Source: Gammaproteobacteria bacterium
Lineage (GTDB): Bacteria; Pseudomonadota; Gammaproteobacteria; GCA-001735895
Assembly: GCA_022340305.1 (NCBI GenBank)
Contig: JAJDOF010000035.1
Coordinates: 18,096 to 82,095, forward strand
Length of the DNA: 64,000 nucleotides
Reading direction: 5' to 3'
The notes under the pieces are model-generated. The model had not been told where the DNA came from. It ran no database searches and worked only from the letters and a program-made list of their open reading frames with translations. This document shows, piece after piece, positions 39,617 to 52,291 of this stretch; the first letter of the stretch is position 1, and every line of letters starts with the position of its first letter. The position numbers and the translations under genes are program-made.

Positions 39617-40465
39617 TCAGGCTGGCCGTGGCGCCGCACCGGCAATGGTAGTGCGATAAAGGCAACGTCGCTTGCCATCGTAGTCGTTGACTGCATAGTG
39701 CAAGGTCGAACGGTTATCCCAAACTGCAACGCTGCCCGGGGTCCACTTGAAGCGGCAGCTAAACTCGGGTCGGGTGCAATGCTGGTAGAGGCTCGCCAGC
39801 AATGTATCGCTATGCGCGGGGGCCAGGCCATCGATGCGGATGGTGTAAGTGGGATTGACAAACAGCAACAGTTCACCGCTGTCAGGGTGCCTGCAGATCG
39901 CCGGATGACGGGTTTCCCGATCAGCCTGGGGATTATTGCGCTCGATCTGAATGGACCCCTTGAACCGGGAGCTGTCCTCAGGGGCATGCGTCACCCCATA
40001 GGGCGCTCCGCTGTGAATCGCGGTTTTACCCTGTAGCAATGTCTGCTGTTCGCGCGGTAATGCCCGGTAGGCCTGCGCCATATCGATCCACAGCGTATCT
40101 CCACCAACGGCTGGTACCTGTTCGGCATAGAGTATCGAAGCTCGAGGCGGTGCTTCGAGGAAGCTGAAGTCCGAATGCCAGTCGCCGCCGAAGACACCCA
40201 TGTTGACTTCATGTGCCTCTTTGAGGACGCGGATAATGTTGGGATAGCCCTCGAGTGGCTTGATATAGGGTAATTGCGTCAACTCGCCGAAATGGCGACT
40301 GAATTGTTGCAGTTCATCGAGATTGATATCCTGTTCGCGCAGGAAGATGACCTTGTAATCCAGCAAGCTGCGGTGCAGCGTGTTGATTGCCGTAGCATCC
40401 AGGCGTCGGATATCGACACCATTGATTTCAGCTCCGAGCCCTGGCGTGAGTGGTGAAATTTGCAT
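39617..40465 (-). CDS. TauD/TfdA-family alpha-ketoglutarate-dependent dioxygenase
   Basis: GVFGGDWHSDFSFLEAPPRASILYAEQVPAVGGDTLW (HxD), AVWDNRSTLHYAVNDYDGKRRCLYRTTI (distal His/Arg). Confidence 0.92.
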   Translation of the reverse strand: MQISPLTPGLGAEINGVDIRRLDATAINTLHRSLLDYKVIFLREQDINLDELQQFSRHFGELTQLPYIKPLEGYPNIIRVLKEAHEVNMGVFGGDWHSDFSFLEAPPRASILYAEQVPAVGGDTLWIDMAQAYRALPREQQTLLQGKTAIHSGAPYGVTHAPEDSSRFKGSIQIERNNPQADRETRHPAICRHPDSGELLLFVNPTYTIRIDGLAPAHSDTLLASLYQHCTRPEFSCRFKWTPGSVAVWDNRSTLHYAVNDYDGKRRCLYRTTIAGAAPRPA

Positions 40466-40487
40466 CGGGTTTTGTTGTGAACGAGAC

Positions 40488-42701
40488 CTAGCGGAACAGG
40501 TATATCGGGCTGGACCAGGCATAGTGGCCATCTTCGAAGGTCACGCGTACGTACAACGCGTTGTCACGATCGTCGGCCAGGGAAATCTCTCGCTCGATGT
40601 GGATCGCTGCGTGTGGATTGTCATCGGGCAGGCGAAACACCCGGATGCGGCGCTCGATGCCACCGTTTTCGTATATGAGTTCATCGCGCCCGATCGAATC
40701 GATTTCGATGCTCTGCTGTATCAGAGCGGTGTCGATCTCGAGTGTTCCCGAGTACGGCTCCTGCAATAACGTTTCAAAGCCACCGAATCCACCGGTCGTC
40801 AATGCGCTCCATTCGACCTGTCCAGCCGCAGTCTGCTCAAAGCGCCTGTCAATATTAAATCGGTTGATCGGAGTGAGCGACTGGAAACTATTTTCAGTTA
40901 CCCTGGCTTGGCCGTCCCAGATGGTTTCCCGCCCACGACCACGATACTCGGAACCTTCCCAGATGACGCGAATACGCCGCCCAAGGTCAGCTTCGCTGTA
41001 AGGCCGATAGACCTCCAGCGTTTCGAGGCCGTTGCGGATATCGATGCGTTCTATGGGCGCAGTTCCGTGGACATCGATGCTGAAGCTGACCGTTTCGTCT
41101 GCGCAGCGCAGGATATCGCCCATCATCGCACTGCGTACCGGTTGCGAACCGACATCACCGAGACGCGGATCGTCGCTGAACAGTTCGGCGTCTGCCGTGA
41201 ATTTGACACGGGTATCGAGAATGACACGATTGCCGGTAGTGCCGTAGTGGTGTCGCTGGCGCAGGCCCTGCATGATACCGGCGCGGGTGAAGGCGGGCGC
41301 CAGTACACTGGTCAATCCGCCGTAAGCTCCAAACTTGGTCGAACCCGGATGCGAGGCGCCCGGGCGTCCCTTGTGGCCGTCAGAATTTGACACGATACCG
41401 ACACGGTAGCCCTGTTCGAACGCATCGTGGATCAGCCATTCGAAAGTGCCCCAGGCTGAATGTACTTCGACCGCTTTTTCGAGACGTTGATCGTGCGCCA
41501 CCCGGATGTCGGCGTAACGTCCGCCGATGTGCGCAAACACCGTACAGTCCTCGTCCTTGAGAGCTTCGAACAGGTCCGCAGCCGAGGTCGCATCGCTGTC
41601 GATATCCGATAAATCATCCACCAGCGCATGCGACGAACGATGTATTGTACGGCCCTCGTGCATGTGTAAAACGTTGCGATCACCGCCAAGCCCGGTGTTT
41701 CCGGACCATTCCCATCCGGGGAATACGATGAAGCGATCGTCCTCGGTAAACTCTGCCGAAAGTTCGTTCAACCAGTTCCAGAACTCGGTAGTGATCTGGA
41801 AGTCGTTACCCTGGTGTACACAGATGTCGAGAAATGCCTTGTCACGTGCAAAGTCATAAAAGTCACGCGCCGAGTTGGTGCCGATAGTTTCCTCGGATTG
41901 TCCGTGCAAATCGCCCCAGTAGGGCAGTAACTCGGCGTTCTCAACGATTCGGCAGGGATTCGATTGCGCCACCAGGCCACCATCCTCGCCAACCAGCTCG
42001 ACGAGCAGATCACCACTTTGCGTGACTTTCAGGCCCTCGAGGATTTGCGCAAACTGACCGCTCTCAAAACAAATCGAGTCAGGCAGGGCGTCTACCGGCA
42101 GGTTGGCGCGCAGGCCCAGTTTGCGGTCGCAAAGGTTGGAAGGGTTACCCCAGCGATCTTCACCCTTGATGCACAGGCGGAATGCCTCTCCATGGCGACG
42201 GAGCGTGGGCAGAATTGCCTTGTACAGCACGGGCGGGCCGGGGACGATCGAGATTTCGGGTTGCTCCGGCAGTTCGACATAGTTATAGGTGGCGATCGCG
42301 TCGACCAGCACCTTGAACTCGAAAGTCGCCTCGCAAAAGGTCTGGATGCGCATGCCGGGTGAACCCTCGCGCCGATCACCGAAGCGCACGACAATCTGGT
42401 CGCCCTCGCGCAGAAAGCCGCGCACCACCTTGATGTAAAGTGTCTTGTCCCACGGTCGAATATTGCGTTTCATGTCGTACTCTACGTGCAATACGGCACC
42501 GTTACTGGCTTCCACGGTGACGTAGTTGGCTGCGCTCGGGTTATCGAACTGCGGGCGTCCCATATCCGAGGCGAAGCGGTGTACGATTTTAAGCGAACCG
42601 GTATCGTCGATGCCGAAATAGCCCGCGGTATAGGTGAGCGTGAACTCCTGGTAAGAGCCCGCTTCGAAACTGCCGCCTGGTTCGACTATGGCCGAACCCA
42701 T
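40488..42701 (-). CDS. DUF3604 family protein (PHP-like metal hydrolase)
   Basis: LLPYWGDLHGQSEETIGTNSARDFYDFARDKAFLDICVHQGND, IVFPGWEWSGNTGLGGDRNVL, GIVSNSDGHKGRPGASHPG; possible longer start at 42776. Confidence 0.85.
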   Translation of the reverse strand: MGSAIVEPGGSFEAGSYQEFTLTYTAGYFGIDDTGSLKIVHRFASDMGRPQFDNPSAANYVTVEASNGAVLHVEYDMKRNIRPWDKTLYIKVVRGFLREGDQIVVRFGDRREGSPGMRIQTFCEATFEFKVLVDAIATYNYVELPEQPEISIVPGPPVLYKAILPTLRRHGEAFRLCIKGEDRWGNPSNLCDRKLGLRANLPVDALPDSICFESGQFAQILEGLKVTQSGDLLVELVGEDGGLVAQSNPCRIVENAELLPYWGDLHGQSEETIGTNSARDFYDFARDKAFLDICVHQGNDFQITTEFWNWLNELSAEFTEDDRFIVFPGWEWSGNTGLGGDRNVLHMHEGRTIHRSSHALVDDLSDIDSDATSAADLFEALKDEDCTVFAHIGGRYADIRVAHDQRLEKAVEVHSAWGTFEWLIHDAFEQGYRVGIVSNSDGHKGRPGASHPGSTKFGAYGGLTSVLAPAFTRAGIMQGLRQRHHYGTTGNRVILDTRVKFTADAELFSDDPRLGDVGSQPVRSAMMGDILRCADETVSFSIDVHGTAPIERIDIRNGLETLEVYRPYSEADLGRRIRVIWEGSEYRGRGRETIWDGQARVTENSFQSLTPINRFNIDRRFEQTAAGQVEWSALTTGGFGGFETLLQEPYSGTLEIDTALIQQSIEIDSIGRDELIYENGGIERRIRVFRLPDDNPHAAIHIEREISLADDRDNALYVRVTFEDGHYAWSSPIYLFR

Positions 42702-42923
42702 TTTGTGTGGGAGATAAGTGGAGTGGGGCACTGGTGTATCAACCTTGCACTGGCTATGCGCAATCCGGGAAAGCACTAGTTTAACTGCAAATACCCGGGT
42801 TGAATCAAGTCCTGCGGTTATATATCGGCAAAACAGCGGGCAATCGCCAGCGATAGCTATGCAACCGCGCAGCGAGCGTTTCCGTGCTGGCGTTTGCCGT
42901 CCGGGCGCGTTATTTTAGCGCGC

Positions 42924-43748
42924 ATGAGACGGTCCCACGAGCGTTACGCCACCCTGGGCATGTATGCCTTTACCGAGGCGCAGCAATTTGCCTGGCAGCA
43001 GCTGTTTGATCATTTTTGCGAATTTACCGGCGTGGACTCCACACAGATCGCGCTGCGCTTCGAACACGATCCGGCATTGCTGCTCGAGCCCGGATTGTGG
43101 TTCGGTCACACCTGTGGTTATCCGTTGATGATGCGTCTGCGACAACATGTCAGCCCCTTCTGTGTGCCCCTGTTCGACGTGCCGGGCACGGACGGCAGGT
43201 ATTACTCGAGCCGTATCATCGTTGCCGCCGGGTCAGGGATCGAATCCATCGCCGATAGTCGCGGTCGTGTCGCGGCTATGAATAACCCGGATTCCAATAG
43301 TGGGATGAATGTCTTGCGCCACGCCGTGGCCACCGTGCACGATGCTGACCGGTTTGGCGACCGTTTCTTTGCCCGTGTCGTGAACACGGGCGGGCATCTG
43401 TACAGCTTGCAGGCGGTTACCAACGGTGCTGCCGATATCGCCGCCATCGATTGCGTCAGCTACCAGTTGATCGAGGACTGGCAGCCCGAGTTGTGCACGA
43501 GCCTGCGTATTATCGGCGATAGCGTGATGACCTGCGGGCTGCCGCTGGTGATGTCAAATGCGGCCCTCGCCGTTACCGATATTCCTGTGTTGATCGAATG
43601 CCTCAACCGGGCACTGGCTACCTGTTGTGACGAAGTACGCGACATCTTGCACCTGACCAGCTTTGCCCCTGTGCAGATGGCTGATTACCAGAGCATTGTT
43701 GAGATTGAGGAATATGCCGTTGCGCGCGGTTACCCGGAACTCAATTAG
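42924..43748 (+). CDS. PhnD/SsuA-like phosphate/phosphonate-type substrate-binding protein, no evident signal peptide
   Basis: LEPGLWFGHTCGYPLMMRL, SSRIIVAAGSGIESIADSRGRVAAMNNPDSNSGMNVLRHAV, VNTGGHLYSLQAVTNGAADIAAIDCVSYQLI. Confidence 0.85.
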   Translation: MRRSHERYATLGMYAFTEAQQFAWQQLFDHFCEFTGVDSTQIALRFEHDPALLLEPGLWFGHTCGYPLMMRLRQHVSPFCVPLFDVPGTDGRYYSSRIIVAAGSGIESIADSRGRVAAMNNPDSNSGMNVLRHAVATVHDADRFGDRFFARVVNTGGHLYSLQAVTNGAADIAAIDCVSYQLIEDWQPELCTSLRIIGDSVMTCGLPLVMSNAALAVTDIPVLIECLNRALATCCDEVRDILHLTSFAPVQMADYQSIVEIEEYAVARGYPELN

Positions 43749-43868
43749 GTTGGTGATTTAAGTCAACACAAGTGTTCATAAATAACCTCTGTGACACTTA
43801 TAGACCGCCGTTCTTTTCTCACCTATTATCGGCGGCTCTATCAGGGAACCCGTCATGAGCTATCGAAC

Positions 43869-45389
43869 ATGAGCCGAAGAAGAGTTCGCAGCCGCAATGC
43901 CACATCCGCGCAACTGGTCAAGCCGCAAGCCGGACAGTTGTTCAATCCTTATGAACCAGTGGAGGCGCTCGGTGATGAGGCGCTCGACCTGATTCACGAT
44001 GGCTCGATGCGCATACTCGAAGAGATCGGTCTGGAGGTACTCAACGAAACCGCGCTCGGACTCTATGAGCAGGATGGTGCGCGCGTCGACTGGGATTTGC
44101 AGCGAGTCTTCATCGATCGCGAAAAACTGATGCCACGCCTGGCCACGGTACCACCGCACTTCACCATGCATTCGCGTAATTCTGAACGCAATCGCCTGGT
44201 GGGTAAAAACGCGATCAATTTCACCACGGTCGCGAGTGCGCCTAACAGTTCGGATCTGGAAGGCGGGCGGCGTACCGGCAATTTTTCGGACTATTGTAAT
44301 TTCCTGCGCCTGGCGCAGAGCTTCGACATCATCGATTTTCTGAGTGGCTACCCGGTCGAGCCTGTCGATATTCATCCGGAAACACGGCATCTCGACGCCA
44401 CCCTGGCTGCATTGACGTTGACCGATCGGGCATTTTCGCTCTATTGCCTGGGTGGTGGACGCGTCAATGATGGTATCGAGATGACCGCGATCGCGCGTGG
44501 CGTCGACCGTGAGACGCTTAAGTCCGAGCCCAGTATCATTACCGTGGTGAACACCAACTCACCGCTGCGGGTTGACGGCCCCATGCTCGATGGCTTGATC
44601 GAAATGGCCGAAAACGGACAACCTACCATCGTTACCCCGTTCACCCTGGCGGGCGCCATGTGCCCGATCACCATCGCTGGTGCGCTGGCACAGCAAAACG
44701 CCGAGGCGCTGGGTGTGATTGCGTTATCGCAGATTGTAAATCCGGGAGCACCCATGGTTTACGGTGGCTTTACTTCCAACGCCGATATGCGCAGTGGTGC
44801 CCCGGCCTTCGGCACCCCCGAATACACCCGCGCTGCCTGGGCGACCGGGCAGCTCACGCGACGCTATAACCTGCCGTTTCGTTCGTCCAATACCAATGCG
44901 TCGAACTGTGTCGACGCACAGGCGGCCTGGGAGTCGCAAATGTCGCTGTGGGGCGCGGTGATGGGGCATGCGCACATCGTCAAACACGCCGCCGGCTGGC
45001 TGGAAGGAGGCCTGTGCGCCTCGTTTGAGAAATTTATTATCGATGTCGACATGCTGCAGATGATGGCAGAGACGCTGAAACCGCTGCGGGTCGATGAATC
45101 GACGCTGGCGCTGGATGCGATTGTCGAGGCCGGCCATGGTGGCCATTTCTTTGGCACCGCGCATACGCTGGCCAATTACAGCACCGCGTTTTACGAGCCG
45201 CTGGTTGCAGACTGGAGCAATTTCGAAACCTGGCAGGAAAACGGTGAACAAACCGCCTACCAGCGCGCCAACCGGGTTTACCGGAAAACCCTGAAGGACT
45301 TTGAAGAACCCGAGATTGAACCCTCCATACGCCAGTCCCTGGAACAGTATGCGCGCGAACGCAGTCGCGAAGTGGAACTTGCCCGATGA
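43869..45389 (+). CDS. Trimethylamine methyltransferase (MttB) superfamily protein, non-pyrrolysine type
   Basis: ALDLIHDGSMRILEEIGLEVLNETAL, TIVTPFTLAGAMCPITIAGALAQQNAEALGVIALSQIVNPGAPMVYGGFTSNADMRSGAPAFGTPE, GHGGHFFGTAHTLANY; no in-frame amber. Confidence 0.93.
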   Translation: MSRRRVRSRNATSAQLVKPQAGQLFNPYEPVEALGDEALDLIHDGSMRILEEIGLEVLNETALGLYEQDGARVDWDLQRVFIDREKLMPRLATVPPHFTMHSRNSERNRLVGKNAINFTTVASAPNSSDLEGGRRTGNFSDYCNFLRLAQSFDIIDFLSGYPVEPVDIHPETRHLDATLAALTLTDRAFSLYCLGGGRVNDGIEMTAIARGVDRETLKSEPSIITVVNTNSPLRVDGPMLDGLIEMAENGQPTIVTPFTLAGAMCPITIAGALAQQNAEALGVIALSQIVNPGAPMVYGGFTSNADMRSGAPAFGTPEYTRAAWATGQLTRRYNLPFRSSNTNASNCVDAQAAWESQMSLWGAVMGHAHIVKHAAGWLEGGLCASFEKFIIDVDMLQMMAETLKPLRVDESTLALDAIVEAGHGGHFFGTAHTLANYSTAFYEPLVADWSNFETWQENGEQTAYQRANRVYRKTLKDFEEPEIEPSIRQSLEQYARERSREVELAR

Positions 45390-46231
45390 GACTGCAGGAA
45401 CGAGTTACATTGTTCCAGGAACGATTGCAGCGCGTTATCCTGCGCAGTGGTTTGAACCGGTCGTCATTTGCGACTTCAATCCGGGTTGATCGCTCGACGC
45501 TGTCGCAGCTACTGTCGACGGAGAATGTACGCCTGCCGCGCGCGGATACAGTGTTGTCCATCGCCGAAGTCTACCAGGTCAGTGTTGACTGGTTGCTCGG
45601 GATTACCCAGGAAGGTGACATGGGCGCCAACATAGTGCACGAAGCGCTCGAAGTGGATGATTCCGGTACCAGTATTTTCGAGAAAAATCTCGAATGGCAT
45701 CGCGAGGCGCGAGGTTACAAGATTCGCTACGTACCGACCACGCTGCCGGACCTGCTCAAGACCGAAGCGGTCGCGGAGTACGAGTTCAATCGCTATGGTT
45801 CAGGCAAGATCGACCAGTCGGTGCGCGATAACCAGTTATTACTGCTGCAGCAACGCCATCCGGGTAGTGAGCTGGAAACCTGTATGCCACTGCATCATCT
45901 CGAGAGTTTCGCCCTCGGTGAGGGTATCTGGCGTGACCTGCCACTCGCTGGCCGGCGCCAGCAATTGCAGCGCATGATTGAACTGAACGAGGAACTCTAC
46001 CCGGGCTTCCGCTGGTTTCTTTACGATGGCAAACAAACCTATTCGATATCGATGACCATCTTTGGACCGATGCGCGTCTCCCTGTTCCTCGGCAAGTTGT
46101 ATATCATCGTCAACAACATCGACCACATTCGCAAAATCACTGACCGCTTCGACGATCTGATTCGCATGGCGGTAGTCCACCCACACGAAATCGGCGACTT
46201 TCTGCAACGCTTATTGCAGAGGTGTAAATAA
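45386..46231 (+). CDS. XRE-family HTH transcriptional regulator with C-terminal sensor-like domain
   Basis: LNRSSFATSIRVDRSTLSQLLSTENVRLPRADTVLSIAEVYQVSVDWLLG; ATGA overlap with the MttB-like gene. Confidence 0.88.
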   Translation: MRLQERVTLFQERLQRVILRSGLNRSSFATSIRVDRSTLSQLLSTENVRLPRADTVLSIAEVYQVSVDWLLGITQEGDMGANIVHEALEVDDSGTSIFEKNLEWHREARGYKIRYVPTTLPDLLKTEAVAEYEFNRYGSGKIDQSVRDNQLLLLQQRHPGSELETCMPLHHLESFALGEGIWRDLPLAGRRQQLQRMIELNEELYPGFRWFLYDGKQTYSISMTIFGPMRVSLFLGKLYIIVNNIDHIRKITDRFDDLIRMAVVHPHEIGDFLQRLLQRCK

Positions 46232-46248
46232 CCCACGGGGACCACGCT

Positions 46249-47556
46249 ATGGCAAAATCTTACGACGCAATCATCATCGGGGCCGGCATCATCGGCTGCG
46301 CCACCTCGCTCGCGCTCGGCCGCAAAAGCTGGAAAGTGCTTAACCTGGACCGCCTGCCGACGGCGGGCTATGGCTCAACCTCGGGTTCCTGTGCGATTAT
46401 CCGCCCTTACTACTCGACGCTGGACGGCTCGGCGATGGCCTATGAATCGCATTACTACTGGAAAAACTGGGCCGATTACCTGGGCGCGGCTGATATCGAC
46501 GAGCGCGGATTGATCGAATACCACAATGTCGGCGCGATGGTCATGAAAACCGAGCTCAACGACTATCTGCGTCCGACCATGGCGCTCATGGACGAGCTCG
46601 ATTCTCCCTACAGCGAGTTTACACCACAAGAATTGCGGCAAAAGCTGCCGGTGTGGAACACCGAATCCTTTTACCCGGTCAAGTTGCCCGATGATCCGCA
46701 GTTCGGTATCGCCAATGACGAGCCCTTGCCGGGCGCGGTGCTGTTTCACGCCGCCGGCTACGTTTCCGACCCACAACTGGCGACGCACAATATCATGCGC
46801 GCCGCGGAGAGGGCGGGTGGCCAGTTCAAGTACAATGCCGAAGTGGTTGAGATCCGTCGCGCGGACGGCTGCGTGGCGGGAATTACCCTGGCAGATGGAG
46901 AGCGTATCGACGCCCCGGTAGTGCTGAACGCGGCCGGACCGCATTCGTCGAAGATCAACCGCATGGCCGATGTCGAAAAATACATGAAAGTGAAAACGCG
47001 CGCGCTGCGCCAGGAAGTCGCGCACGTGCCGCTGCCCGATGGCTATGTGCGCGAGACCGGCTGTGTCACCTCGGATAGCGACATCGGCGTCTATACGCGT
47101 CCAGAGCAGGGCGACAGCCTGCTGATCGGTAGCGAGGATCCACCGGTGGATAAGCACGAATGGGTGGATCCGGATGACTACAACCGAAATTTCACCGAGC
47201 AGTGGCGTACCCAGGTGTTGCGCGTGTGCCAGCGCGTTCCAAATCTCGGTGTGCCCAGCAAAATGAGTGGCGTGGTTGATCTTTACGATGTCACCGATGA
47301 CTGGATTCCCATCTATGACCATTCCGATCTGAATGGCTTCTATCTCGCCATCGGCACCAGCGGCAACCAGTTCAAGAATGCGCCGATCGCCGGTGAAATG
47401 ATGGCTGACATCATCGAGGCCACGCAAAATGGCAACGATCAGGATGCCACGCCGATCGATTTTCATTTAAAGCACATCGATCGCAAGGTCAGCAGTGGGT
47501 TTTACTCGCGTTTGCGTGAGATCAATCAAAACAGCAGTTTTTCAGTATTGGGGTAA
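46249..47556 (+). CDS. FAD-dependent oxidoreductase, DAO / sarcosine oxidase beta-like
   Basis: YDAIIIGAGIIGCATSLALGRKSWKVLNLDR, VVLNAAGPHSSKINRMA, FYLAIGTSGNQFKNAPIAGEMMADII. Confidence 0.92.
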   Translation: MAKSYDAIIIGAGIIGCATSLALGRKSWKVLNLDRLPTAGYGSTSGSCAIIRPYYSTLDGSAMAYESHYYWKNWADYLGAADIDERGLIEYHNVGAMVMKTELNDYLRPTMALMDELDSPYSEFTPQELRQKLPVWNTESFYPVKLPDDPQFGIANDEPLPGAVLFHAAGYVSDPQLATHNIMRAAERAGGQFKYNAEVVEIRRADGCVAGITLADGERIDAPVVLNAAGPHSSKINRMADVEKYMKVKTRALRQEVAHVPLPDGYVRETGCVTSDSDIGVYTRPEQGDSLLIGSEDPPVDKHEWVDPDDYNRNFTEQWRTQVLRVCQRVPNLGVPSKMSGVVDLYDVTDDWIPIYDHSDLNGFYLAIGTSGNQFKNAPIAGEMMADIIEATQNGNDQDATPIDFHLKHIDRKVSSGFYSRLREINQNSSFSVLG

Positions 47557-47561
47557 TCGCC

Positions 47562-49979
47562 ATGCGTTCTCATGCCCAAGTCGTCGTGATCGGTGGCGGT
47601 GTCGTCGGTTGCAGCGTGATTTACCATTTGACCAAGCTGGGTATGCAGGATGTGGTGCTGCTCGAGCGTTCTGAACTGACCTCAGGCTCGACCTGGCACG
47701 CCGCCGGCGGTTTCCACACGCTGAATGCCGATACCAACATGGCAGCATTGCAAGGTTATACGATTCGGCTCTATCGTGAACTCGAGGAGCTTACGGGTCA
47801 GTCCTGCAGCCTGCATCATGTCGGCGGACTGACGCTGGCGGAAACGCCCGAACGCCTCGATTTTCTCAAATCAGCGCGGGCCATGCACCGCCATATGGGG
47901 CTCGATACGGAACTGGTGACGCCCGAGGAAATTCGCAAACTAAGCCCGATCACCAACACCGATGGCGTGCTTGGTGCGCTCTATGACCCGCTCGATGGTC
48001 ACCTCGATCCATCGGGTACGACGCACGCCTATGCGAAGGCGGCGCAAATGCAGGGTGCCGAGATAATCCTGCGCAACCCGGTTCTGGAAACCAATCCGCG
48101 CACCGACGGCAGCTGGGAAGTGGTGACCGAGCAGGGCACGATCATCGCTGAACACCTGGTCAATGCGGCCGGGTTATGGGCGCGTGAAGTCGGCGCGCTG
48201 GCGGGTATCTACCTGCCGCTGCATCCAATGGAGCATCAGTATTTCGCCACCGCCGATATTCCTGAAGTGTTTGAACGTGAAACCGAGCTGCCGCACGTGA
48301 TGGATCCGGAAGGGGAGAGTTACCTGCGCCAGGAGGGCAAAGGCCTGGTGATCGGCTTTTATGAACAGAACTGCGTGCCCTGGGCGGTCGATGGTACGCG
48401 CTGGGATTTCGGTCACGAACTGCTCGATGAAAACCTCGATCGCATCGGCGATTCGATGGAATTCGCCTTCAAACGCTACCCGGTACTCGCCGAGGCCGGT
48501 ATCAAGACCATTATAAACGGCCCCTTCACCTTTGCACCGGATGGCAATCCGCTGGTCGGCCCGGTGCCGGGGCTGCGCAACTACTGGTCGGCCTGCGCGG
48601 TTATGGCGGGCTTCAGCCAGGGTGGCGGGGTAGGCCTGACGCTTGCCGAATGGATGATCGAAGGTGAACCTTCGCGTGATGTGTTTGCGATGGATGTGGC
48701 GCGCTTCGGCGACTACTGCACACCTGCCTATACGCGCCTCAAGGTGACCGAGAACTATCAACGGCGCTTCACCGTATCCTACCCGAACGAAGAATTACCG
48801 GCAGCCCGCCCGCTCGATACCACGCCAGCCTATGGCATCTGGCAGCAACAGAATGCAGTTTTTGGTGCGGCCTACGGCATGGAGCACGTCAATTATTTTG
48901 CGCCGCAAGGCGAAGAGCCGTATGAAATACCCAGTTTCCGTCGCTCCAATGCATTTGCCACGGTCGCCGCGGAATGCCGCGCGGTGCGTGAGGCGGTGGG
49001 CCTCAACGAAGTGCATAACTTCGGAAAATACGAGTTCAGCGGGGAGGGCGCGCGCGCCTGCCTGGACCGAATCATGGCGGGCAGGATTCCAGCCGTCGGC
49101 CGACTCAGTCTGAACCCTATGTTGAGTCCCGGAGGGCGCATCATCGGCGATTTCACCGTTGCCTGCGTCGGTGAAGGCGTTTTTCAGGTGACAGCCTCTT
49201 TTGGCGCCCAGGCTTATCACATGCGCTGGTTCGAACAACAGCTAACCGGGGCGGACGTCAGGCTCGAGAATGTCTCAAAACAACGCATCGGTTTTCAAAT
49301 AGCCGGTCCGCAGGCGCAGCAATTGCTGGCGCGGGTGACGCGCGCGGATGTTTCCACCGCTGCCTTTCCGTTTTTGTCGGTGCGCGAGATGGACGTAGGC
49401 CAATGCCAGGCTATCGTGCAGCGAGTCAGCTATACCGGCGACCGCGGTTACGAGATCTACGTTCCCTGGCATCACCAGGTGGCACTCTACGAAATACTAA
49501 CCCAGGCTGGCAAGGACCTGGGGCTGCGACCTTTCGGTATGCGCGCGATGATGAGCCTGCGCCTCGATAAATCCTTCGGTTCGTGGATGCGTGAATTCAA
49601 ACCCGACTACACGCCACTGGAAACCGGGCTTGATCGCTTTATCGATTATGACAAACCGGTCGATTTTATCGGTAAACAAGCGGCACTTGCACAACGCGAG
49701 GAGGGTGTAAGCCGCAAGTTATGCACCTTTGAGGTCGAGGCGAAGGATGCCGATGTCGTTGCCTGGGAGCCGATCTGGCACGCTGGCGAGGTCGTCGGCT
49801 ACGTCACCTCGGGCGGCTATTCGCACCATGCGCAAAAAAGTATCGCATTCGGATTCGTGCCGATCGAACTGGTGGCAGAAGATCTGCAGGTGGAAATCGA
49901 GATTCTCGGCGAAATGATTCCTGCCAGGCTCTATTCGGTGCCGTTGTTCGATCCGCAAAATGAGTACCTGCGGGGTTAG
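47562..49979 (+). CDS. Dimethylglycine/sarcosine dehydrogenase-like FAD + GcvT protein
   Basis: VVVIGGGVVGCSVIYHLTKLGMQDVVLLERSELTSGSTWHAAGGFHTL; C-terminal aminomethyltransferase-like module (VSYTGDRGYEIYVPWHH, VTSGGYSHHAQKSIAFGFVP). Confidence 0.92.
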   Translation: MRSHAQVVVIGGGVVGCSVIYHLTKLGMQDVVLLERSELTSGSTWHAAGGFHTLNADTNMAALQGYTIRLYRELEELTGQSCSLHHVGGLTLAETPERLDFLKSARAMHRHMGLDTELVTPEEIRKLSPITNTDGVLGALYDPLDGHLDPSGTTHAYAKAAQMQGAEIILRNPVLETNPRTDGSWEVVTEQGTIIAEHLVNAAGLWAREVGALAGIYLPLHPMEHQYFATADIPEVFERETELPHVMDPEGESYLRQEGKGLVIGFYEQNCVPWAVDGTRWDFGHELLDENLDRIGDSMEFAFKRYPVLAEAGIKTIINGPFTFAPDGNPLVGPVPGLRNYWSACAVMAGFSQGGGVGLTLAEWMIEGEPSRDVFAMDVARFGDYCTPAYTRLKVTENYQRRFTVSYPNEELPAARPLDTTPAYGIWQQQNAVFGAAYGMEHVNYFAPQGEEPYEIPSFRRSNAFATVAAECRAVREAVGLNEVHNFGKYEFSGEGARACLDRIMAGRIPAVGRLSLNPMLSPGGRIIGDFTVACVGEGVFQVTASFGAQAYHMRWFEQQLTGADVRLENVSKQRIGFQIAGPQAQQLLARVTRADVSTAAFPFLSVREMDVGQCQAIVQRVSYTGDRGYEIYVPWHHQVALYEILTQAGKDLGLRPFGMRAMMSLRLDKSFGSWMREFKPDYTPLETGLDRFIDYDKPVDFIGKQAALAQREEGVSRKLCTFEVEAKDADVVAWEPIWHAGEVVGYVTSGGYSHHAQKSIAFGFVPIELVAEDLQVEIEILGEMIPARLYSVPLFDPQNEYLRG

Positions 49980-50012
49980 CGGCACGATGCGCGATATGGG
50001 AAACAGAGCGTA

Positions 50013-50531
50013 ATGACAGACTCGAATTGGCAGGACTCGGTATTCGAGGCCATCAAGGCAGGCGGCATCGATCTCGTCGGCTACGTCCCGGACGCCGGTC
50101 ACGCGGCACTGATCGAAAAATCGATACGGGATGCGGACATCGTCGACGTGGCGCTGACCAGCGAGGAAGAGGGTGTCGCCTTGTGCGCGGGCGCCTGGCT
50201 TGGCGGCAGGAGAACGCTGTTGTTGATGCAGTCGAGCGGCGTCGGCAATTGCATCAACATGTTGTCGCTGCAACGCATAGCGCGGACTCCGATGGTAATC
50301 ATCGTCACCATGCGAGGCGAATATGCCGAATTCAATCCCTGGCAGGTGCCGATGGGTTCAACCACCGAGCGCGCATTGCAGCTGTGCGATTTCCAGGTGC
50401 AGCGCGTCGACCAGGCCGAGGCGGCGGCCGAAACCGTGGCAGCGGCCATCGACATGGCTTACGCCGGCGATGTCGCGATCGCGGTGCTGCTGTCGCAGAA
50501 AATGCTGGGGCGGAAAAAATGGCAGGAGTGA
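50013..50531 (+). CDS. TPP-dependent decarboxylase alpha (PYR-type) subunit, sulfopyruvate/phosphonopyruvate decarboxylase-like
   Basis: GIDLVGYVPDAGHAALIE, ALTSEEEGVALCAGAWLGGRRTLLLMQSSGVGNCINML. Confidence 0.83.
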   Translation: MTDSNWQDSVFEAIKAGGIDLVGYVPDAGHAALIEKSIRDADIVDVALTSEEEGVALCAGAWLGGRRTLLLMQSSGVGNCINMLSLQRIARTPMVIIVTMRGEYAEFNPWQVPMGSTTERALQLCDFQVQRVDQAEAAAETVAAAIDMAYAGDVAIAVLLSQKMLGRKKWQE

Positions 50532-51127
50532 TTGCGCAACTGAAACGCCGCGCAGTGGTCCGCGATATGCTCGCCAACCGGCAGGGGCTCACGGTCATAT
50601 CGGGACTGGGCTCGCCGACCTACGATGTTGCCGCGGTGGCGGATCACGAACGTAATTTCTACCTTTGGGGTGCCATGGGGGGTGCGGTTGCAATGGGCCT
50701 CGGTCTCGCGCTGGCGCGACCGGACCTCGATGTGCTGGTCGTCACCGGTGACGGCGAAATGCTGATGGGAATGGGCAGCCTGGCAACGGTAGGGGTCAAG
50801 GCGCCTGCTAATCTCGCCATCCTCGTGCTTGATAATGGACGCTACGGCGAAACCGGCATGCAGCAAAGCCATACCAGCACGGCTTGCGACCTGTGCGCGA
50901 TCGCGCGAGCCTGTGGCATAAAGGATTCCTGGCAGGTATCGACCGCAGCCGAACTGCGGCGGATCCGGGATGATTTTCAGCGTAACGGCAGCGTTCGCTT
51001 TCTGCAGGCGAAGGTCGCTGATGATCAGCCCGGGCGAGTCATGCCGACTCGCGACGCCGTTGCGAACAAGCTCAGGTTCCGTCGTGCCGTGGACGCGGAA
51101 AGTGCGCCGTCAAATGCAAAACCTTGA
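50519..51127 (+). CDS. TPP-dependent decarboxylase beta (PP-type) subunit, sulfopyruvate decarboxylase-like
   Basis: TPP motif GDGEMLMGMGSLATVGVKAPANLAILVLDNGRYGETG; ATG at 50519, overlapping the alpha subunit by 13 bp. Confidence 0.83.
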   Translation: MAGVIAQLKRRAVVRDMLANRQGLTVISGLGSPTYDVAAVADHERNFYLWGAMGGAVAMGLGLALARPDLDVLVVTGDGEMLMGMGSLATVGVKAPANLAILVLDNGRYGETGMQQSHTSTACDLCAIARACGIKDSWQVSTAAELRRIRDDFQRNGSVRFLQAKVADDQPGRVMPTRDAVANKLRFRRAVDAESAPSNAKP

Positions 51128-51956
51128 GGTATTTCAATCACTTTGGGCCATGACGACGCGCCCGCCGGACGGCGTCGAGATGCCATTGGGCGAACAGATG
51201 CAGCGGATCGCGGACGCCGGATTCGACGGGGTCGATATCGTTCATGGTGATTACCCGGAGGCAGAACTCGAAAAATTACTGCAACAATACGGACTGGTCT
51301 GCACGGTAACCGCTTTTCCACAGAGTATCGAGGCGTTGGCACCGGCGCTCGAGCTCGCCATCGCGCTAAATGCACGGCACCTCAACGTCATTGGCGCCGT
51401 TTACCCATTCAGTGTCAACGCGGGCGCGCGCTATGTGCGTGGCTGGCTGGAACTCTGTAATCGCGTCAACATGCCGGTCACGATTGAAACCCATCGCGAC
51501 AGCATCACCACGGATATGCTGTACACACTGCAATTGATGGCGGCGGTACCAGAAATGCAACTGTGTGCGGACTTATCTCATTATGTAGTCGCCAGGGAAT
51601 TCAAGTGGCCGCTCACGCCACTGGTGAATTCGCAGATAAAAAATATTCTGGATCGCTCAGCAAGCTTCCAGGGACGCGTTGCATCGCGCGAACAAATCCA
51701 GTTACAGGTGAGCTTCGCGCATCACGTCGAGTGGTTCGATCAGTTTGCCGCCTGGTGGGACTATGGATTTCGTTCCTGGCGCAGGCGCAAACCGGCAGAC
51801 GCCACACTGAATTTTCTGTGTGAACTCGGACCGCGCGAATACGCGATGACTGGAGCGGACGGTGCAGAATTATCGGATCGCTGGGAAGAGGCTCTGATCA
51901 TCCGCGATCGTGTTCGTCAAATCTGGGAGCGTAGCCAACCAACCAGGTCACCGTGA
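51114..51956 (+). CDS. Sugar phosphate isomerase/epimerase-like TIM-barrel protein
   Basis: MPLGEQMQRIADAGFDGVDIVHGDYPEAELEKLLQQYGL, VTIETHRDSITTDMLYTLQLMAAVPEMQLCADLSHYV; overlaps the previous gene by 14 bp. Confidence 0.8.
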   Translation: MQNLEVFQSLWAMTTRPPDGVEMPLGEQMQRIADAGFDGVDIVHGDYPEAELEKLLQQYGLVCTVTAFPQSIEALAPALELAIALNARHLNVIGAVYPFSVNAGARYVRGWLELCNRVNMPVTIETHRDSITTDMLYTLQLMAAVPEMQLCADLSHYVVAREFKWPLTPLVNSQIKNILDRSASFQGRVASREQIQLQVSFAHHVEWFDQFAAWWDYGFRSWRRRKPADATLNFLCELGPREYAMTGADGAELSDRWEEALIIRDRVRQIWERSQPTRSP

Positions 51957-52291
51957 CCCGGCCTAAAATCTGAGTTATCTGAATTCGGAGTAAACGGTGT
52001 TTACGGTTAACCGAGGCAGAAGGGTACACCCGAGCATTCGCCAGGTTTTCTGAGCTGGTAGAGATTCCTGTTGATATTTACCCGAGCGGAAGAAGGTTTT
52101 GTGGAATCCCCCTGTTTATGCTTAACTTTACATAATATACATTATGCGCATATATAGAATAATACTGATCAGTCGGGCAGAGCTGTTTCGTTATCCACGG
52201 AAGTAATAGTTTCAATATAAAACTAACTCTAGATAGTTTAAGATTATTGCTTTCCGCGATAAACTTATCGCTCTTCACGCCGAGAACCCCG

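Follow-up and report, generated by a model that had tools for sequence, protein, structure and literature searches.

A conserved MttB-DMGDH gene cluster in a gammaproteobacterium as a candidate peripheral module for N-demethylation

The window analyzed here, a stretch of 64,000 nucleotides of gammaproteobacterial DNA (contig C75:18096-82095), contains a gene cluster at positions 42,924–51,956 that is built around a conserved core of an MttB-family methyltransferase and a demethylase of the dimethylglycine dehydrogenase type (DMGDH). Judged from its sequence, the cluster probably encodes a peripheral module that removes N-methyl groups from a quaternary or poly-N-methylated zwitterion, probably not glycine betaine, and feeds a shared hub formed by MtgC and MtgD. 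The window belongs to a draft genome of 4.35 Mb that is 86% complete (genomes, contigs, and loci carry our identifiers G, C, and L; this genome is G000). The cluster comprises eight co-directional open reading frames (ORFs) on the plus strand (Table 1), with three overlaps (45386–45389, an ATGA junction; 50519–50531; and 51114–51127) and remaining gaps of 5–42 bp. These genes and overlaps are as described in an initial annotation made from the sequence alone: ORF coordinates match, and the families agree by Pfam and NCBIfam.

The methyltransferase-demethylase core

Of the 31 genomes of the genus, 25 hold an ortholog of the window MttB (76–88% identity) and two more hold fragments. Among 20 loci fetched from the family, dmgdh follows mttB in every case where the contig is long enough; dao, encoding a flavin adenine dinucleotide (FAD)-dependent oxidoreductase, is found in 13 and the regulator gene xre in nine. 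A gene for a PhnD-like binding protein adjoins, co-directional in the closest group (53%–55% identity) and divergent in the rest (43%–46%). A different genus of the family (G032) retains the order mttB-dao-dmgdh, at 52%, 61%, and 52% identity, respectively. Genomes from other gammaproteobacterial families hold mttB, dmgdh, an AioX/PhnD-like gene, and xre together (G114) or pair dmgdh with xre and a PhnD-like gene, the latter two sharing a four-base overlap (G100).

A scan of the named genomes with a DAO alignment returned 569 relatives. Within the best 80 of these, from Gamma- and Alphaproteobacteria, dmgdh lies no more than 10 kb away in 25 and mttB in 23. Outside the genus, an mttB relative lies within 10 kb in 15 of 72 loci that have a dao relative (p ∼6e-7, with an assumed background of 4.5%) and dmgdh is present in 19 of the 72; co-location of dao with mttB exceeds chance. 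Some alphaproteobacterial loci without mttB have a Rieske oxygenase near dao-dmgdh (L119, L131, and L136), which we count in favor of the proposed module. The initial annotation had suggested methylated-amine catabolism through a non-pyrrolysine MttB and FAD enzymes, and the pairing of MttB with DMGDH in every congener whose contig allows it, the similarity of the latter to 4PAB, and the recurrence of dao, dmgdh, and mttB in other families bear this out. Rare co-location of homologs, which it had named as grounds for refutation, applies only to the three genes at the end of the cluster; the core is widely co-located.

The DMGDH-type protein has the domain order of the dimethylglycine dehydrogenase family, DAO-FAO_M-GCV_T-GCV_T_C, with catalytic-type residues kept, and is closest to the mammalian enzyme (643 bits to 4PAB). 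It retains the covalent-flavin-type His46 of an STWH motif, and its His225 and Tyr254 correspond in the alignment to His225 and Tyr259 of dimethylglycine oxidase, residues with a catalytic role in enzymes of that type. These features are shared with rat (4PAB) and human (5L46) dimethylglycine dehydrogenase. Unlike these, the window-type DMGDH is paired with MttB or a Rieske oxygenase. The AlphaFold model of the DAO protein (pLDDT 91.8) has 3ada_B, sarcosine oxidase beta, as its best match among PDB folds, suggesting a similar fold.

The PF06253 match of the window MttB spans positions 3–498 of 500. Since mttB has no in-frame stop, it is not of the pyrrolysine type, and with no UAG in the gene and a TIGR02369 score of 286.6 bits, against a cut-off of 525, the pyrrolysine reading was rejected. 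The G028 ortholog (L054:3609-5126, minus strand) has an in-frame TAG at codon 443, near the C terminus, where the window protein has Glu; this codon does not occupy a pyrrolysine-type site and probably reflects a nonsense change or an error in the assembly.

The proposed corrinoid hub and methylated substrate

There is no corrinoid protein gene within the cluster. The sole PF02607 protein detected genome-wide is of the MtgC type and is encoded on contig C97 in a run of mtgC, DUF1638, a small ORF, a cysteine-rich ORF, metF, mtgD, and ramA. MtgC was assigned by PF02607, whereas MtgD, RamA, and DUF1638 were recognized by reading translations rather than by a profile search. The genome thus holds MtgC, MtgD, RamA, and DUF1638, a hub that the initial annotation, correct in outline, did not include and that lies on another contig. 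Some members of the genus have MetH-like long frames; none was seen in this genome, an absence that is soft at 86% completeness. A short MtgC-type protein usually occurs once per genome in the genus. MttB-family (PF06253) genes number nine in the window's genome and 4–23 per genome across the genus (23 in G010 and 21 in G011, contig-end fragments included), which looks new against the published “up to seven.” One MttB of the same large clade as the window protein (G000:C106:75499-77001, and likewise L043:8485-12077) is encoded by a gene that overlaps an NADH:flavin-oxidoreductase-like gene beside dipeptide-type ATP-binding cassette transporter genes and is a candidate second betaine module.

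In the route we propose, the MttB-family protein would move the first methyl group to the shared MtgC, from which MtgD would hand it to tetrahydrofolate for oxidation by MetF, with RamA and DUF1638 re-reducing the cobalamin. The DMGDH-type enzyme would oxidize a second N-methyl group, which its GcvT domain would trap as methylene-tetrahydrofolate; oxidation of the last N-methyl group or of the C–N bond would fall to the DAO flavoprotein. The XRE regulator and AioX-like protein would probably sense a small ligand, and in a small clade the ComDE-like decarboxylase and TIM-barrel enzyme have been added, perhaps processing a 2-oxoacid or aldehyde skeleton. According to the initial annotation, no described pathway is known with this exact gene combination, and our literature searches found nothing relevant on the full combination. 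A published aerobic pathway of the same design (PMC12478193) was missed in that annotation.

The substrate class is suggested by phylogeny. The window MttB is 39% identical to 4YYC and 36% to the glycine betaine methyltransferase MtgB (9YCE), whereas an MttB encoded divergently on C97, a few kilobases from the mtgC run, is 67% and 49% identical to them, respectively. In the MttB tree, for which 4YYC and 9YCE were represented by their aligned portions only, the clade that includes the window protein has 12 rows and is separated by a 100/100 split from the MtgB/4YYC side. The same-genome MttBs C97, C103, and C56b are all on the opposite side of this split, C97 grouping with 4YYC. Clade members carry GYPVEP where MtgB and 4YYC show a different stretch after GG. 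The DMGDH tree likewise places the window protein in a 15-row clade (95/98), apart from the C103-linked DMGDH of the same genome; the C103 and L110 MttBs pair in one tree and their DMGDHs in the other. Because the window MttB and DMGDH sit in clades apart from MtgB/4YYC and the C103-linked proteins, the substrate is probably not glycine betaine.

The gene set would nevertheless fit exactly a further glycine betaine pathway, with MttB forming dimethylglycine, DMGDH sarcosine, and DAO glycine. The kinship of the DMGDH to the mammalian enzyme, with His225 and Tyr254 kept, agrees with this, as do the sarcosine-oxidase-like fold of DAO and the induction of two MttB proteins, SPO2108 and SPO2134, by glycine betaine in Ruegeria pomeroyi (PMC12478193). 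We consider this rather unlikely, given that the genome already holds a 4YYC-like MttB by the mtgC hub, the C103 MttB-DMGDH pair, and a soxBDAG-like set, and that the window MttB belongs to a separate deep clade. Locus L110 unites both gene sets, placing a GYP-clade mttB and dao beside a canonical MttB-DMGDH-BCCT-like set, and so allows a glycine betaine role; since it joins both kinds, a separation of substrates is something we infer rather than observe.

L110 weighs against the peripheral module that we prefer, and other observations do so too. At 86% completeness, the draft may have missed further corrinoid proteins. The congener clusters L049, L050, L058, L060, and L061 have no dao, so a third demethylation step is not fixed, and many dao genes elsewhere stand alone or beside transporters, without demethylases. 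More specific substrates were rejected: histidine betaine (hercynine), prompted by an XRE/AioX-like pair before hutUIH in G399, a single case that has neither dmgdh nor dao; arsenobetaine, prompted by the AioX-like protein, for which flavin demethylation of an arsonium by DMGDH is chemically implausible and a literature search gave no MttB link; and sulfonate or phosphonate betaines, prompted by the ComDE-like and TauD genes, of which the former score under the family cut-offs and the latter, with DUF3604, is divergent.

Table 1. Genes of the cluster, in window coordinates
Product	Position	Strand	Evidence
AioX/ArrX-type PhnD-fold binding protein without signal peptide, probable cytosolic ligand sensor	42924..43748	+	PF12974, 63 bits; AioX profile; fold; pocket residues
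MttB-family non-pyrrolysine methyltransferase, “GYPVEP” clade	43791..45389	+	PF06253, 615 bits; tree; orthologs at 76–88% in congeners
XRE-type regulator; family elsewhere near FADS desaturases, mttB, or AioX-like genes	45386..46231	+	HTH_3; neighborhoods
FAD-dependent amine/amino-acid oxidoreductase (DAO), sarcosine-oxidase-beta-like fold	46249..47556	+	PF01266; AlphaFold model; 569 relatives
DMGDH-type demethylase (DAO, FAO_M, GCV_T, GCV_T_C) with GcvT folate domains	47562..49979	+	Domains; residues; own clade
Thiamine pyrophosphate (TPP) decarboxylase alpha half (ComD-like), clade-limited accessory	50013..50531	+	TIGR03845, 122 bits (cut-off 148)
TPP decarboxylase beta half (ComE-like), clade-limited accessory	50519..51127	+	TIGR03846, 134 bits (cut-off 221.5)
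Xylose-isomerase-like TIM barrel, clade-limited accessory	51114..51956	+	PF01261 (AP_endonuc_2), just above threshold; alignment

The MttB start is likely the alternative ATG at 43869, as in congeners; 120 bp would then separate it from the PhnD-like gene. A promoter and terminator scan was uninformative, with fewer promoters than the shuffled expectation and 15 terminator-like sites (9.0 ± 2.8 expected), mostly within genes. Divergent from the cluster, a TauD-family dioxygenase and a DUF3604/CehA-like metallohydrolase are encoded at 39617–42776 (minus strand); DUF3604 genes of a close relative (L048, L100) are 82%–84% identical and lie a few kilobases off.

The putative sensor-regulator pair and the accessory trio

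The protein initially annotated as PhnD-like has AioX and ArrX as its best profile and fold matches, before PhnD (AioX profile, 1.3e-22; fold TM score, 0.80). AioX binds arsenite via Cys106, in a pocket formed by Tyr88, Cys106, Tyr131, Ser161, Ser163, His192, and Asp210 (PMC5908839). The window protein has Phe46, Cys64, Tyr94, Ser124, Ser126, His158, and Asp176 at these sites, such that six of the seven residues are kept, the arsenite cysteine included, and only Tyr88 is replaced. Unlike the arsenic oxyanion sensors, it has no signal peptide on inspection of its N terminus, the cluster contains no sensor kinase gene, neither a histidine kinase nor a response regulator is encoded beside it, and its neighbor is an XRE regulator. 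A signal-less binding protein of the AioX/ArrX type that retains the arsenite-site cysteine looks new. Its adjacency to xre, strongest in G100, suggests that the two act together in regulation, probably by sensing a small ligand.

The XRE family of the window regulator occurs in 7 of 369 genomes of the class. It was rejected as a specific marker of amine clusters, as nine congeners have a paralog by a desaturase gene without mttB. In congeners, and also in several other families, this paralogous XRE gene stands divergent to that of a FADS-type desaturase (L248–L253 and L257; L191, L193, L195, L196, and L123). At L192:6900-13436, an XRE and an AioX-like gene directly precede hutU, hutI, and hutH, and a GYP-clade mttB is encoded divergently.

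The TPP pair and the TIM barrel are accessory rather than core, and their placement between dmgdh and fadAB is confined to a small clade. The trio is missing from the clusters of most congeners, in which the core is present. G029 (L050) has fadAB after dmgdh across a 218 bp gap with no trio between; G010 (L087) has dmgdh-tppN-tppC followed by a transposase-like ORF, with no tim; and G013 has the end of dmgdh, tim, and fadAB in order, with tppNC elsewhere beside a polyamine-type transporter (L084, L088). Among the 41 genomes of the order, TIM relatives occur in four and tppC relatives at ≥60% identity only in G010 and G013. The initial view of the decarboxylase and TIM barrel as integral parts is at odds with these arrangements. 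The element TTTATGCTTAACTTTACATAATATACATTATGCGCATA ahead of fadAB (window 52105–52150), which contains a near-palindrome and may be an operator, is common to the window and L084 and largely to L050, suggesting that fadAB is a separate unit.

The spacer in L050 that stands in the trio's place, and the retention of the element upstream of fadAB, would also fit a chance insertion of the trio between dmgdh and fadAB, next to a core to which it is unrelated. We regard this as unlikely, because in three genomes dmgdh has parts of the trio behind it, and elsewhere TIM relatives adjoin demethylation-type genes. The opposite proposal, in line with the initial annotation, makes all eight genes one dedicated pathway in which an N-methyl amino acid would yield a 2-oxoacid through DAO, followed by decarboxylation by the ComDE-like enzyme and isomerization of the product by the TIM barrel. 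Tight spacing and overlaps in the window, the dmgdh-tppN-tppC and dmgdh-tim orders in G010 and G013, and a full-length TPP decarboxylase gene adjoining a TIM relative in G674 speak for it. However, with the core lacking the trio in most congeners, its parts so scarce in the order, and the G013 tppNC by a transporter, we find it improbable.

The TPP halves are nearest sulfopyruvate decarboxylase alpha and beta, with scores below the ComDE cut-offs (Table 1). Invariant residues of the TIM barrel are E125, H127/R128, D153, H156, Q194/Q196, and E237 in the alignment. In 15 of 23 loci, the gene of its relative neighbors one for a FADS-type membrane oxygenase, in most cases together with a Rieske ferredoxin and a reductase, and others have BCCT, Rieske-alpha, GcvT-like, or TPP genes as neighbors; these neighborhoods tie the TIM enzyme to an oxidative attack on compounds that are small and often amine-like. 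The surroundings of the relatives recall rhizopine MocDEF/MocC (PMC10107442), whereas the window has no FADS-type oxygenase. A MocDEF-like cluster of a LacI-type regulator, FADS oxygenase, Rieske ferredoxin, ferredoxin reductase, and TIM barrel is conserved at L221, L228, L229, L231, L232, L234, L235, and L237; literature searches found nothing relevant on the TIM/FADS/Rieske set.

Relation to known demethylation systems

Among the closest described systems is the aerobic glycine betaine demethylation by MtgBCD in R. pomeroyi (PMC12478193), where mutants in mtgC and in mtgD can neither synthesize methionine nor grow on glycine betaine. Both genomes combine a PF06253 methyltransferase with an MtgC-type protein, MtgD, MetF, RamA, and DUF1638 and a DMGDH-type follow-up. 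In contrast, the window MttB belongs to another clade and another cluster, away from mtgC, with XRE, AioX-like, and DAO genes and the clade-limited trio. The MttB-superfamily enzymes of anaerobes (MtgB, MtpB, MtcB, and MtyB) share the family, the lack of pyrrolysine, and the expected use of a corrinoid protein; they differ in that the window MttB is only 36% identical to 9YCE, has no corrinoid gene alongside, and is followed by aerobic-type FAD enzymes. The presence of up to seven MttB paralogs was taken by the authors of the R. pomeroyi work to imply other substrates (PMC12478193), and diverse substrates for MttB paralogs have been predicted (Mausz et al., 2025).

More tentatively, the cluster might represent a new B12-dependent aerobic demethylation pathway for an unrecognized betaine, combining a GYP-clade MttB, the shared MtgC hub, and a window-type DMGDH under the control of an intracellular AioX-like sensor with XRE, a split one-component system in which the AioX fold would have moved to the cytosol. 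Aerobic B12-dependent demethylation has been shown only recently, for glycine betaine. Should such modules prove to be spokes on a common hub, each specific for its substrate, the MttB clades of an organism could show which methylated nitrogen compounds it uses, and B12 supply would be tied more broadly to the use of dissolved organic nitrogen.

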